Shown in pieces: positions 1,033 to 49,400 of a stretch of 64,000 nt of DNA. The first letter of the stretch is position 1. Each line of letters starts with the position of its first letter. The notes beneath the pieces are model-generated. The model searched no databases. It saw only the letters and a list, made by a program, of their open reading frames with translations, and was not told the origin of the DNA. The position numbers and the translations under genes are program-made. This DNA is from Geovibrio thiophilus (lineage in GTDB: Bacteria; Chrysiogenota; Deferribacteres; Deferribacterales; Geovibrionaceae): the NCBI RefSeq assembly GCF_004087915.1, contig NZ_CP035108.1:2542001-2606000 (forward strand). Reading direction: 5' to 3'.

Positions 1033-1086
1033 AAACCCCTTCAAAAATTTTTAACTGCTTTGCATTATTAAAAATTAACCAAAAGC

Positions 1087-1130
1087 ACGCCGGAGCCAAC
1101 AGGTAATAACGTAGACGAAGCTGGCATATC
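1087..1130 (-). repeat. Vestigial duplicate of the methyltransferase gene 3' end
   Basis: These 44 bases are identical to 1252-1295, inside the methyltransferase gene. Read on the minus strand and continued to about 1068, the vestige encodes the same C-terminal peptide (PASSTLLPVGSGVLLVNF then stop) as the live gene. The last codons differ synonymously: GTG CTT TTG GTT AAT TTT TAA here against GTT TTG CTG GTG AAT TTT TGA in the live gene. A structured repeat element (1141-1233) lies between the two copies. This looks like a displaced gene end left after insertion or recombination. Confidence 0.85.
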
Positions 1131-1140
1131 TGACTTACCG

Positions 1141-1233
1141 ATTAAAATTTCCTTCCGTGGAAATTTTAATACACGCTCGCGCCGTGGTAAACACGGCTTC
1201 GCTGCGCACGGCGGGATTTCCGTCCATGGAAAT
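1141..1233 (-). repeat. Three-hairpin dispersed repeat, copy A
   Basis: On the minus strand the order is hairpin 1 (1233-1216, ATTTCC/GGAAAT), conserved block GCCGTGCGCAGCGAAG (ending 1197), hairpin 2 (15 nt, 1196-1182, CCGTG/CACGG), conserved block CGCGAGCGTGT (1181-1171), and hairpin 3 (1170-1141, a long palindrome with TTTCC/GGAAA). Hairpin 1 abuts the stop codon of the methyltransferase gene. The same architecture recurs at 8006-8097, 15228-15426 (twice) and 38140-38236. The flanking 44-bp direct repeats (1087-1130 and 1252-1295) suggest insertion with target duplication. Confidence 0.85.
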
Positions 1234-1859
1234 CAAAAATTCACCAGCAAAACGCCGGAGCCAACAGGTAATAACGTAGACGAAGCTGGCATATCATTTT
1301 TTATTTCCTCGATGAAATTGAGGAGTTCGTCACGTCCTTGGCGGTATTTTTTGGAGACTTCCGCTGTTTCCATGGCGAGCATTCCGAAGAGGAGCACATC
1401 ATCGAATATTACAAGTCCGCCTTTATTGACTCTGCTTTTGACAGTCTGCCACATCAGCGGGTAGATTCTTTTTACGGAGTCGATAAACACCATGTCATAG
1501 GTTTCTGCTGTGCGGTTAAGGTACGCGACTGCGGATTCGCTTATGAATTCCACATTTTCCAGCTCAATGCAGAGGGTTTTCGCCACGGCTATGCGGTTGG
1601 GATTGTGGTCAATTCCGGTTATTTTCGCACTGGGAAAGCCCTGTTTTATATACGTGGTGGATGTACCTATGCCGCTGCCGATTTCAAGAACTGAGGCGGG
1701 TTTAAGCACGGATGCGAGCAGGCGGAGGAGCTCTCCTGTTTCCGGTTCGACGGAAGGAACATCGTGTTTTTTGGCATAGTCGTGCATATCTTCATTTTTC
1801 GCTCTGACTGTAGAACGGATGTATTCGAGAATACCGGGGATTAATATATCGTTTTTCAT
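1233..1859 (-). CDS. Class I SAM-dependent O-methyltransferase
   Basis: This 208-residue protein is of the catechol/caffeoyl-CoA O-methyltransferase-like family (COG4122). It has the SAM-binding motif VLEIGSGIGTSTTYI around residues 57-71, an acidic motif after strand 2 (ITGIDHNP), and FIDSVKRIYPL followed by VIFDDVLLFG, where the family places metal-binding acidic residues. The substrate cannot be told. It begins directly after the stop of the MotE-like gene (1860), so it is the last gene of the flagellar operon, a position that may mean only co-transcription. Its 3' end is duplicated outside the gene (1087-1130) and a structured repeat follows its stop codon at once. Confidence 0.88.
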   Translation of the reverse strand: MKNDILIPGILEYIRSTVRAKNEDMHDYAKKHDVPSVEPETGELLRLLASVLKPASVLEIGSGIGTSTTYIKQGFPSAKITGIDHNPNRIAVAKTLCIELENVEFISESAVAYLNRTAETYDMVFIDSVKRIYPLMWQTVKSRVNKGGLVIFDDVLLFGMLAMETAEVSKKYRQGRDELLNFIEEIKNDMPASSTLLPVGSGVLLVNF

Positions 1860-7935: not shown

Positions 7936-8005
7936 ATTTAGTGTCTCCCTAACTGAATATATAGTATATCAGGGGTATTTTACAACCTTTATCTAACTTT
8001 ATAAG

Positions 8006-8097
8006 AACAATCCGCGCATCATGCCGGATTGTTCCACACGCTCGCGGTTTGCAAAGCAAACCTTCGCTTCGCACGGCGCGGTTCCTTCCGTGGAACC
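8006..8097 (-). repeat. Three-hairpin dispersed repeat, copy B
   Basis: On the minus strand: hairpin 1 (8097-8080, GGTTCC/GGAACC around ACGGAA), block GCGCCGTGCGAAGCGAAG (8079-8062), hairpin 2 (8061-8047, GTTTGC-ttt-GCAAAC), block CGCGAGCGTGT (8046-8036), and hairpin 3 (8033-8006, AACAATCCG/CGGATTGTT). The conserved blocks match the other copies while the stems of all three hairpins differ in sequence but keep pairing. It lies in the flgC-fliE spacer and reads in the direction of the operon. Confidence 0.85.
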
Positions 8098-8148
8098 GTC
8101 TGGGCTCCAAATTCAAAGGGCATAATAATTCTTTAAATCTCCCCTGCC

Positions 8149-15227: not shown

Positions 15228-15426
15228 GCAACTCCACGGATGGAGTTGCGCCGTGCGAAGCGAAGCCGTGTTCACCACGGCGCGAGCGTGTATCCGAAAT
15301 TTCCATGGATGGTAAATTTTGGATTATAAAGACGAGACATGCGCCGTGCGAAGCGAAGACGAACGAAGTTCGGCGCGAGCCTGTATCCGAAATTTCCATG
15401 GATGGTAAATTTTGGATTATAAAGAC
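15228..15426 (+). repeat. Three-hairpin dispersed repeat, copies C1 and C2 in tandem
   Basis: C1: hairpin 1 (15228-15249, CAACTCCA/TGGAGTTG), block GCGCCGTGCGAAGCGAAG (15248-15265), hairpin 2 (15266-15280, CCGTG/CACGG), block CGCGAGCGTGT (15281-15291), hairpin 3 (about 15297-15320, AAATTTCC/GGTAAATTT). C2 repeats the block, hairpin 2 (15359-15373, CGAAC-gaa-GTTCG), block CGCGAGCCTGT and hairpin 3 at a period of exactly 93 bases. Apart from one base in the second block, only the middle hairpin differs between C1 and C2 over the repeated unit. It reads opposite to the neighbouring genes. Confidence 0.88.
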
Positions 15427-37046: not shown

Positions 37047-38132
37047 GTGTTTGAGATTAAAGACGAACGGCTGCAAATTCTGATACTCGCGTCCATCCTC
37101 ATCGCAACGGGGCTGATATTCGTGTTCTCGGCGGGCTCCATACAGGCACTGAGGCTTGACAAGGGAGAGCTTTACTTCTTCAACAAGCAGCTTTTGGCAG
37201 TCTTCATAGGTCTCGGACTCATGTACGGCGCCTACAGCATACCTCTGAAAACGTGGCGCAGGTTTGTGCCCGCGCTTTATTTTCTCACTCTGATACTGCT
37301 GATAACCGTATTCTTTTTCCCGAAGCTCAACGGCTCACACAGATGGATTCTTCTGCCCGGATTCAGCCTTCAGCCCTCGGAACTGGCAAAATTTACCTGC
37401 ATACTTTATCTCGCCCACTATCTGGACAAGAAGGAAGGCAGGCTGAACGACTTTACCTCCGGTTTCCTTCCGGCGTCGATAATGCTGGGAATAATCGGAG
37501 CGCTTATATTAAGCGAACCGGATTACGGAACAACACTGCTTATAATCTGCGTGTCTTTCACGCTGTTTCTGATAGGCGGTGCCCATATGCGCCATATGAT
37601 AGGCGTTATAGGGTTCATCGCTCCTATTATAACCGCAGGGCTTCTCATGGGTTACAGGAGGGGCAGGATAATGAGCTTCCTTGACCCATGGGAAGATCGC
37701 TACGGAACAGGCTACCAGCTTGTGCAGTCGCTCACCGCGGTGGGCAGCGGCGGCATATTCGGCAAGGGTGTCGGCAACTCATCCCAGAAGCTGTATTTCC
37801 TCCCCGAGGCTCATACGGACTTCATCTACGCCATAATCGCCGAGGAGACAGGGCTCATTGGCTCTCTGGCTGTCCTTGTGATAGTTACGGCATTTTTTAT
37901 AATAAGCGTGAAAGTTGCTCTTAAACATAAGGAACTTTTTTATAAACTGCTCACCTTCGGGCTGGCGTTCAGCCTGTTTGTTCAGGCACTGCTGCACATC
38001 TCGGTGGTTACCGGACTCCTGCCCACAAAGGGCATAGGGCTCCCTTTGGTCAGCTACGGCGGCTCGAACATGATGGTATCCCTCTTTATGGTAGGCGTGC
38101 TTCTGCGCAGCGCGGAGGAGGCGGGCTCATGA
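37047..38132 (+). CDS. ftsW: Peptidoglycan glycosyltransferase FtsW (SEDS family)
   Basis: FtsW (361 residues, 10 membrane helices) polymerises septal glycan from lipid II with FtsI. Features include SLQPSELAKFTCILYLAHYLDKKEGR, EPDYGTTLLIICVSFTLFLIGG, LDPWEDRYGTGYQLVQSLTAVGSGGIFGKGVGNS, LPEAHTDFIYAIIAEETGLIGSL and LPLVSYGGSNM, with the SEDS catalytic Asp in PEAHTDFI. It starts with GTG 37047, one base after the murD stop. The stop TGA lies inside a 16-bp sequence (38118-38133) that is repeated at 38249-38264 over the murG start; a structured repeat sits between them. Confidence 0.96.
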   Translation: MFEIKDERLQILILASILIATGLIFVFSAGSIQALRLDKGELYFFNKQLLAVFIGLGLMYGAYSIPLKTWRRFVPALYFLTLILLITVFFFPKLNGSHRWILLPGFSLQPSELAKFTCILYLAHYLDKKEGRLNDFTSGFLPASIMLGIIGALILSEPDYGTTLLIICVSFTLFLIGGAHMRHMIGVIGFIAPIITAGLLMGYRRGRIMSFLDPWEDRYGTGYQLVQSLTAVGSGGIFGKGVGNSSQKLYFLPEAHTDFIYAIIAEETGLIGSLAVLVIVTAFFIISVKVALKHKELFYKLLTFGLAFSLFVQALLHISVVTGLLPTKGIGLPLVSYGGSNMMVSLFMVGVLLRSAEEAGS

Positions 38133-38133
38133 A
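38118..38133 (+). repeat. Direct repeat flanking element D (left)
   Basis: GAGGCGGGCTCATGAA holds the end of ftsW (stop TGA 38130-38132) and is repeated exactly at 38249-38264, where the same bases supply the ribosome binding site and ATG of murG. The original genes probably overlapped by ATGA at this sequence. Confidence 0.85.
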
Positions 38134-38139
38134 TGAGGA

Positions 38140-38236
38140 AAAACTCCACAGAGGGAGATTCGCCGTGCGCAGCGAAGGGAAGCTTGCTGACCGCGAGCGT
38201 GTACAGTTTTCGGACAGGACGTACCGAAAACTGTTA
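38140..38236 (+). repeat. Three-hairpin dispersed repeat, copy D
   Basis: Order on the plus strand: hairpin 1 (CTCC 38144-38147 / GGAG 38154-38157), block CGCCGTGCGCAGCGAAG (38161-38177), middle hairpin of 14 nt (38178-38191, inner AGC-tt-GCT), block CGCGAGCGTGT (38192-38202), hairpin 3 (ACAGTTTTCGG 38203-38213 / CCGAAAACTGT 38224-38234, an 11-bp perfect stem). It lies between ftsW and murG and between two 16-bp direct repeats, so it will be part of the dcw transcript. Confidence 0.85.
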
Positions 38237-38248
38237 TCAGGACAGACT

Positions 38249-38264
38249 GAGGCGGGCTCATGAA
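38249..38264 (+). repeat. Direct repeat flanking element D (right), carrying the murG start
   Basis: Second copy of GAGGCGGGCTCATGAA. The GAGGCGGG acts as ribosome binding site and the ATG at 38260 starts murG, so duplication kept murG translatable after the insertion. Confidence 0.85.
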
Positions 38265-39297
38265 AAGAGAGAACACAAGGTTGGTAATCGCCGGCGGCGG
38301 AACGGGCGGACACCTCTACCCGGGAATCGCCGTTGCTGATTATCTCAAAGAAAAAAATATTGAAGTGTTTTTCATGGTTTCCGACAGAGGAATCGAAAGA
38401 AAAATACTTTCATCAAAGGGATATGACTTTTACGAACAGCCGCAGACACCCCTCAAGGGAATAGGCACGGCGGGCAGAATACGCTCCGTCATGCTCCTTG
38501 CAAAGGAAGTCTTCGGGATGCTTAAAAAAATAAAGAAGACCGATACAGTGCTCCTCACAGGCGGCTTTGCCGCCGCTGCCCCCGCCATAGCCGCAGTTCT
38601 CAAAGGGGCAAGACTGTATCTGCATGAGCAGAACAGCGTGATGGGGCTCACAAACAGAATATTTGCCGTTTTCAGCAAAAAGGTTTTTCTCTCCTTCGAG
38701 GGAACGCTGAAAGCGAAAGGGAACACAGTGCATGCGGGCAATCCCGTGAGGGCTGAATTCGCCTCCTGCACGCCGAAGACGGAAGAGACCAAGCGGATTC
38801 TTGTTCTCGGCGGAAGTCAGGGGAGCAGGTTTCTCAACAGGCTCATGGCGAAATCGGCAAAGGCGCTGACGGACGCCGGATGGACAATAACCCATCAGAC
38901 AGGCGCCAAGCTTTATGACGAAGCCCTTGAGGACTACACCAGAGAAGGCGCAGAGGCGGATGTGCGAAGCTACATAGAAAATGTGGCGGCGGAATATGAA
39001 AAAGCGGATGTTGTTATAGCCCGCTCAGGCTCAGGTACGGTTTTTGAAACAATGTACGCGCGCCGCCCGGCGGTTTTCGTTCCATTTGCGCAGGCAACAG
39101 ACGAGCACCAGCTTTATAACGCCCTTTTCGCCGAAAAACTCGGCATAGCAAAGGTTATGACCGAAAGCGGAGCAAGCCCGGAGAGGCTTAAGGAACTGAT
39201 TGAGTGGTCACGGAAACAGGAAGTAAAAGACAGGCTGGCGGGTATAAAATATCTGAACAGCCCTGAAATAATAGCAAGAGGTATGGAACTTGACTGA
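38260..39297 (+). CDS. murG: Lipid II synthase MurG
   Basis: MurG (345 residues) transfers GlcNAc to lipid I on the inner face of the membrane. The N-terminal GGGTGGHLYPGIAVADYL loop, LTGGFAAAAPAIAAVLKGARLYLHEQNSVMGLTNRI, VLGGSQGSRFLNRLM, and the donor-binding ARSGSGTVFETMYARRPAVFVPFAQATDEHQLYNA are complete. Its start lies in the right copy of the direct repeat that flanks element D. It overlaps the murC start by 8 bases. Confidence 0.97.
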   Translation: MKRENTRLVIAGGGTGGHLYPGIAVADYLKEKNIEVFFMVSDRGIERKILSSKGYDFYEQPQTPLKGIGTAGRIRSVMLLAKEVFGMLKKIKKTDTVLLTGGFAAAAPAIAAVLKGARLYLHEQNSVMGLTNRIFAVFSKKVFLSFEGTLKAKGNTVHAGNPVRAEFASCTPKTEETKRILVLGGSQGSRFLNRLMAKSAKALTDAGWTITHQTGAKLYDEALEDYTREGAEADVRSYIENVAAEYEKADVVIARSGSGTVFETMYARRPAVFVPFAQATDEHQLYNALFAEKLGIAKVMTESGASPERLKELIEWSRKQEVKDRLAGIKYLNSPEIIARGMELD

Positions 39298-48230: not shown

Positions 48231-49400
48231 CTACAGTTTGTTGGTGTATGCGCTCAGTGCCCACCACTGCGCACCGTGCGCACCATGCCGAACAGCCAGT
48301 ACCTTTTCATGGTTGTTCGGCACACCAAGAACAACTCCGTTCGGAGCCAATACGCAGCCCCACCATTTTGCACTGCCGCTGAAACTGCCCATGATCTCGG
48401 TAGAGTTGTCTGTCGGATTGATAACCAAAATCTGCTCTGCATTATAAGGCACACAATATATCTTTCCGTCAGGAGCGAGTACCCCGCCGAACCACCTTGC
48501 TGAACCGCTGAAACTGCCGAAAAGCTCGGTGGTGTTGTCCGACGGATCAATGACCAGAATTTGAGAAGCCCCGCCCGGGACACAGTATATCTTTCCGCTC
48601 GGGGCGAGAACGCATCCGTACCACTTCGCCGTGCCGCTGAAACTGCCGATGATTTCGGCGGAGTTGTCTGTCGGGTCGATAACCAAAATCTGTGCTGAGT
48701 TCAGCGGAGCGCAGTATATTTTCCCGTTCGGTGCTAAGGCTCCTCCGAACCACTTAGCACCACCTTCAAAACTGCCGATAAGTTCAGTTGAGTTATCTGC
48801 CGGATTTATAACAAGTATCTGCGCTGCATCGTAAGGAATGCAGTATATCTTCCCGTTCGGAGCAAGCACCGCACCAGCCCATTTTTTTGTACCGCCGAAA
48901 CTGCCGATAAGCTCAGTTGAGTTATCTGCCGGATTTATAACAAGAATCTGCGTGGAGTTATAAGGCGCACAGTAAATCTTCCCGTTAGGCGCAAGCACTC
49001 CGCCGAACCACCTTGCTGAACCGCCGAAACTGCCGATAAGCTCGGTGGTGTTGTCTGTGGGATTGATAGCAAGAATCTGCGTGGAGCTATAAGGCGCACA
49101 GTACACTTTTCCGTTCGGAGCCAATACCCCCCCTCTCCATTTCCCCGTGCCGCTGAAATCCCCGAAAAGCAGCCCGCCGCTCAATGCACCCGCCGGATCC
49201 GTTGATGCGTATGCTTCGAGAGGGTTAGAATGCGGCGCACCGCCGACAGCCCCTTCCAGATTAACCTTAAGCCTGCCGGACTGCTGATCAAAAACAAGGT
49301 TCAGCACCTCATCCTCTGTTTTATATTTTGCTTTAAGGCGGGAATCAGCCGAGTCGAAAACGCTGTTCAGTATCTCCGCCGATGTTTTTCTTTTTGACAT
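48231..49400 (-). CDS. Phage tail fibre-like protein with seven propeller repeats
   Basis: The 389-residue protein has an N-terminal anchor with two short repeats (EILNSVFDSADSRLKAKY, EVLNLVFDQQSGRLKVNL), then, from about residue 78, seven repeats of roughly 43 residues: F-x-G-x-x-K/R-W-x-G-x-VLAPNGKIYC-x-P-x-x-x-x-QILVINP-x-DN-S/T-T-E-L-I-G-S. The seventh is truncated and ends in a basic, Trp-containing tail. Seven repeats suggest one complete seven-bladed beta-propeller, probably binding a surface ligand. The DNA shows the same 129-base periodicity, so repeat number could change by recombination. Confidence 0.85.
   Translation of the reverse strand: MSKRKTSAEILNSVFDSADSRLKAKYKTEDEVLNLVFDQQSGRLKVNLEGAVGGAPHSNPLEAYASTDPAGALSGGLLFGDFSGTGKWRGGVLAPNGKVYCAPYSSTQILAINPTDNTTELIGSFGGSARWFGGVLAPNGKIYCAPYNSTQILVINPADNSTELIGSFGGTKKWAGAVLAPNGKIYCIPYDAAQILVINPADNSTELIGSFEGGAKWFGGALAPNGKIYCAPLNSAQILVIDPTDNSAEIIGSFSGTAKWYGCVLAPSGKIYCVPGGASQILVIDPSDNTTELFGSFSGSARWFGGVLAPDGKIYCVPYNAEQILVINPTDNSTEIMGSFSGSAKWWGCVLAPNGVVLGVPNNHEKVLAVRHGAHGAQWWALSAYTNKL

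Follow-up and report, generated by a model that had tools for sequence, protein, structure and literature searches.

A three-hairpin repeat with CsrA-type loops at the duplicated ftsW-murG junction of Geovibrio thiophilus

Results

The window analysed here, a stretch of 64,000 nucleotides from the genome of Geovibrio thiophilus (hereafter G000), contains the ftsW-murG junction on its plus strand. ftsW (37047–38132; Pfam FTSW_RODA_SPOVE, E = 2.6e-97) terminates with the TGA at 38130–38132, and murG (38260–39297) carries the N- and C-terminal domains of Pfam glycosyltransferase 28. A repeat element of ~110 nt with three hairpins sits at the ATGA overlap of these two genes, and the junction is duplicated on both sides of it. 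As an initial annotation of this DNA had proposed, the 16-bp sequence GAGGCGGGCTCATGAA occurs on the plus strand at both 38118–38133 and 38249–38264; no third occurrence was found in the window at two or fewer mismatches (chance expectation, 0.03). Copy 1 comprises the final ftsW codons, the stop and the former murG ATG (ATGA at 38129–38132), and copy 2 is the source of GAGG, a remnant of the ribosome-binding site, and of the murG ATG at 38260. Both genes are intact because the junction was duplicated, and the proposal that the insertion had left them complete is borne out by their ORFs and Pfam matches. The description of the surrounding dcw cluster as gap-free holds in part: the cluster is tight almost throughout, but the ORFs of rsmH and ftsL lie ~79 bp apart.

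The element at this junction (copy D of the window; 38140–38248, plus strand) was recognised by covariance model R1 with 96.1 bits. It is divided into hairpin 1 (38141–38160), a core (38161–38177), hairpin 2 (38177–38192), a second core (38193–38202), hairpin 3 (38203–38234) and a tail (38235–38248). Hairpin 3 presents a CsrA-type loop, ACAGGACGT, at 38214–38222. The loop of hairpin 1 has decayed in G000 (ACAGAG) with the loss of GGA, and is intact in the relative G002 (ACGGAG); the stem of hairpin 2 has also decayed in G000.

Junctions of relatives were retrieved via MurG. The initial annotation had predicted that a relative free of the element would carry one copy of the junction sequence and an ATGA overlap, which is what we found in G001, a member of the same genus with an 86% identical MurG: a single GAGGCAGGCTCATGAA with an ATGA overlap. 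G002, which is nearer to G000 than G001 is, carries the element of G000 at the identical position, together with the two junction copies. The duplication in G002 is 19 bp long when counted as exact and ~25 bp when mismatches are admitted (GAGGCGGGCTCATGAGTGAaGAAAA and GAGGCGGGCTCATGAGTGAGAAAAA), so that the 16 bp in G000 are probably the minimum length of an event that copied the first murG codons as well. Most of the remaining family members have an ATGA or TGATG overlap between ftsW and murG and no element. The site in G001 might be empty because an exact deletion between the repeats removed the element, and not because it was never filled; whichever history G001 had, the overlap is ancestral, because the outgroups mostly keep ATGA or TGATG without the element. 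The ancestral ATGA overlap suggested earlier is thus supported by G001 and by most of the family. As a separate observation, CTCATGAG, present in both junction copies of G002 (L110:11395–11565), is self-complementary; in the predicted RNA fold of the G002 ftsW-murG region the two start regions pair together, and the predicted fold of G000 has no such pairing.

A comparable arrangement was found in another genus, where a related element in G007 splits the ATGA overlap of a different gene pair. Copy 1 of the G007 duplication, GGAGTAAACAATGA, closes the upstream gene and copy 2, GGAGTAAGCAATGATTG, opens the downstream gene; the duplicated 26 bp include a ribosome-binding site and the ATG. G005 and G009, which belong to the same genus as G007, have a single ATGA overlap at that junction. 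To judge from these sequences, G007 is an independent recurrence of ATGA splitting by a related element.

The repeat is a high-copy family that has expanded in this genus of the Deferribacteraceae. A first DNA search of the G000 genome returned ~100 matches, many in head-to-tail arrays whose period differs by locus, and the covariance model yielded at least 124 matches in each of G000, G001 and G002, and weaker or fewer ones in other family members. The copies share a plan of hairpin 1, the core GCGCCGTGCGnAGCGAAG, hairpin 2, the core CGCGAGCGTGTA, hairpin 3 and a tail near TTATnAAnTCAGA. Among 45 aligned copies, 95.7% of cells were paired (63.4% after shuffling), the covariation score was 0.833 (0.217 after shuffling) and 362 double changes were counted (106 after shuffling); 24 base pairs covary strongly. 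Hairpin 1 types and hairpin 2 types are unlinked across loci, and hairpins appear to move between copies as complete modules, so the covariation need not stem from mutation-by-mutation change. No Rfam family matched at the gathering threshold or at E ≤ 1, and we found no published description of this repeat family in the open-access literature.

Three related elements lie elsewhere in the window. The first (1127–1235, minus strand) follows the stop of a minus-strand gene and lies within a 64-bp duplication (1067–1130 and 1232–1295) that includes the gene end; it is present in all three members of the genus. Of the other two, one (7990–8099, minus strand) has a different hairpin 2 at the orthologous locus of G002 and is absent from G001, and one (15228–15338, plus strand), followed by a second partial unit to ~15434, is confined to G000. 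Arrays grow and shrink, as the array at L007 corresponds to a single copy at L095. The spacers of several arrays (L002, L015, L073, L077 and L091) often contain a second repeat resembling GAGATTGCTTCACCCTTTCAGGGTTCGCAATGACG. In the sister genus member G003 (L130, L255, L260 and L270), a longer variant of ~147 nt has a different core and keeps GGA in the loops of the first and last hairpins. The window also holds six tandem 129-bp units, 60–74% alike, at 48336–49238 within a minus-strand ORF (48231–49400), which are likely a protein repeat.

Duplicated flanks are not peculiar to the murG junction. In a first set, 13 of 60 loci had a flanking duplication scoring above nearly all mismatched pairs; in a second set of 60 further stretches with 62 loci, scored after the patterns had already been seen, 15 of the 62 lay at a level that 1.3% of mismatched pairs also attained. 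Among these raw numbers are orthologues of a single insertion, spacers of arrays and repeats of other kinds; clean, non-orthologous duplications number ~7–8 per set and are 16–64 bp long, and most loci have no detectable duplication. We set aside the duplications at L283, L293, L332 and on the minus strand of L073 as array spacers in which the parser had missed a further unit, and that on the plus strand of L073 as another repeat; G002 165916 was likewise discarded as a clean recent insertion, since a deleted remnant is present there in G000. Where the duplication is clean, its downstream copy starts ~7–14 nt past hairpin 3, and its upstream copy mostly stops close to hairpin 1. Several duplications carry the stop or start codon of a gene, e.g., the gene ends KEAPNYWVNP-stop at L068 and EAMQG-stop at L006; at G000 2649630, a related element lies between two copies of the smc start. 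Flanks of this kind also occur at related elements in G007, G006 and G011. At the element near 1.1 kb of the window, left and right flanks resemble each other more within a species than across species (L115, L108 and window 1067–1295), which suggests ongoing conversion between the flanks. As at other loci occupied by the family, insertion and duplication at murG likely happened together.

The loops of the first and third hairpins have a recurrent motif. In the second set, A(N)GGA occurs in the loop of hairpin 1 at 47 of 51 loci and in that of hairpin 3 at 57 of 60, and GGA is found in the loop of hairpin 2 at none of 62; the pattern is similar in the first set, where the N positions are free. 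The elements therefore have at least two hairpins with A(N)GGA loops, as in CsrA-binding RNAs: A(N)GGA is the consensus of CsrA/RsmA sites (PMC4066749), which usually come as paired hairpins (PMC4333381). The host genome has one csrA, which adjoins fliW and has a conserved VSVHRKEIF region. With genes called simply as ORFs, elements lie in sense with the upstream gene at 45 of 51 loci in the first set (p = 1.8e-8) and 46 of 57 in the second (p = 3.3e-6), or 91 of 108 together, and in both sets there was no orientation bias towards the downstream gene. With a gene end no more than 40 nt away, 50 of 51 elements are in sense. We also considered replication-strand bias as the cause of this orientation, and rejected it: assuming an origin near coordinate 0, the element follows the upstream gene at 29 of the 34 loci in G000, most lagging-strand genes among them, and so tracks the gene more than the direction of replication. 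The loops and the sense bias together fit a role in mRNA, against which weighs the lost hairpin 1 GGA at the murG copy of G000. We regard the A(N)GGA loops, with moderate confidence, as candidate CsrA-binding sites, and each element copy would add such candidate sites to the transcript of the upstream gene.

Since copy 1 at murG retains the former start codon, a reading frame opens across the insert. This predicted ORF (38129–38263, plus strand) has 44 codons, MNEEKLHRGRFAVRSEGKLADRERVQFSDRTYRKLLSGQTEAGS followed by a stop; it shares an ATGA with ftsW at its start and another with murG at its end (38260–38263), where copy 2 closes it. The frame is also open in G002 (44 codons), and a frame of 45 codons that reads the conserved core in the same phase spans the split junction of G007; in both, the stop likewise overlaps the start of the following gene. 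Coupling by termination-reinitiation reportedly requires genes that overlap or are separated by a very short gap (PMC10666635; PMC6728339, on ATGA and TGATG pairs). Given this requirement, the 44-codon frame could relay the coupling: ribosomes ending ftsW would enter the frame, which terminates on the murG start codon; termination-reinitiation would be relayed across the element and murG would stay coupled. We place moderate confidence in such a relay. Open frames through the elements are common (at least one in 40 of 57 elements), and the duplicated smc start lacks a relay ORF leading to its second copy. The conservation of the frame in G000 and G002, and its recurrence in the same phase in G007, might also be expected of a small functional protein, but the differences between G000 and G002 (five nonsynonymous, two synonymous) show no sign of protein-level selection, and the peptides of the murG junction and G007 share essentially just the residues of the conserved DNA core. 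We accordingly rejected a functional small protein as highly improbable.

Discussion

An insertion-linked duplication of the junction, an ORF relaying translation and loops of the CsrA-site type are, taken jointly, our best explanation of the ftsW-murG locus, and we consider it probable. Alternatively, a chance tandem duplication could have doubled the junction beforehand, the element having entered the spacer, or been converted into it, later. Recombination does act on these repeats, given the within-species likeness of the flanks at the 1.1-kb element and the arrays that grow and shrink; nevertheless, the spacing between the element and the duplications that adjoin it is nearly constant from locus to locus and in different genera, a regularity that independent duplications would not produce, and we find this order of events unlikely. 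The lengths of the duplications vary too much to suit a transposase with a fixed stagger. The Y1 transposase family PF01797 had no match in G000, G001 or G002, and the reverse transcriptase family RVT_1 had none in G000 or G002 and one in G001; mobilisation by RAYT or by a reverse transcriptase was therefore rejected, neither family being matched in G000.

It is attractive to speculate that the elements are a mobile family of candidate CsrA sites, which spreads in Deferribacteraceae genomes by landing in sense at transcribed gene ends, duplicates those ends or junctions and so breaks neither gene, and preserves the coupling of overlapping genes by means of a relay ORF; this proposal is tentative, and on balance we would lean against it. 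Alternatively, the family may be selfish hairpin DNA, the loops and stems serving single-strand recognition by a mobilising enzyme and the ORF being an accident of a stop-poor insert. This alternative, against which we would lean only slightly, would account for the high copy number, the head-to-tail arrays with locus-specific periods and the apparent swapping of hairpins as modules (unlinked types, and a different hairpin 2 at orthologous copies). It does not readily account for the sense bias towards the upstream gene, which the orientation tracks more than it does replication direction, nor for an A-N-GGA-N motif whose N positions are free, present in two hairpins and absent from the third, and the failure to match either mobilising family in G000 also counts against it.

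Among known systems, the REP/REPIN sequences mobilised by RAYT (PMC2817692, PMC3116915) are likewise short, high-copy, extragenic palindromes that form hairpins. They differ in depending on a Y1 transposase, of which this genus has no match, and their palindromes alternate or are inverted (BIME), whereas the elements described here form direct head-to-tail arrays, have three hairpins and are associated with target duplications of 16–64 bp. That range also separates them from classical MITEs, whose target-site duplications are short and of fixed length. The hairpin repeats of sponge mitochondria (PMC2800124) are similarly compact and invade intergenic space, but are organellar, and the cited part of that report mentions neither gene-end duplication nor CsrA-type loops. 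TwoAYGGAY and the CsrB/RsmZ-type RNAs (PMC4333381) share the paired GGA-loop hairpins and are proposed or known CsrA targets; they are, however, a few dedicated small RNAs, whereas here more than 100 copies without an Rfam match are dispersed at gene ends. The closest likeness to the relay is the E. coli iraD leader (PMC5574718), in which CsrA regulates iraD by way of a small ORF ahead of it that terminates on the iraD start codon, combining CsrA sites with translational coupling. The iraD leader is not a mobile element, and our ORF and CsrA sites are predictions from sequence.

Beyond the initial annotation, the present analysis adds the 44-codon ORF, the recurrent duplication of gene ends, the hairpin anatomy with its CsrA-type loops and a second split ATGA. 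The murG junction is one instance of a wider pattern, in which repeats of the Deferribacteraceae insert at gene ends, can rebuild them by duplication and bring hairpins of the CsrA type. It illustrates how an essential junction of overlapping genes can take up a repeat unharmed, both gene ends being rebuilt by the duplication, and the passage from one ATGA to the next is an experiment of nature in which translational coupling can be tested. Were the loops to bind CsrA, a post-transcriptional regulon would have been spread by a mobile repeat, and, should the mobile-site reading be true, hundreds of CsrA sites would have been seeded into mRNAs.
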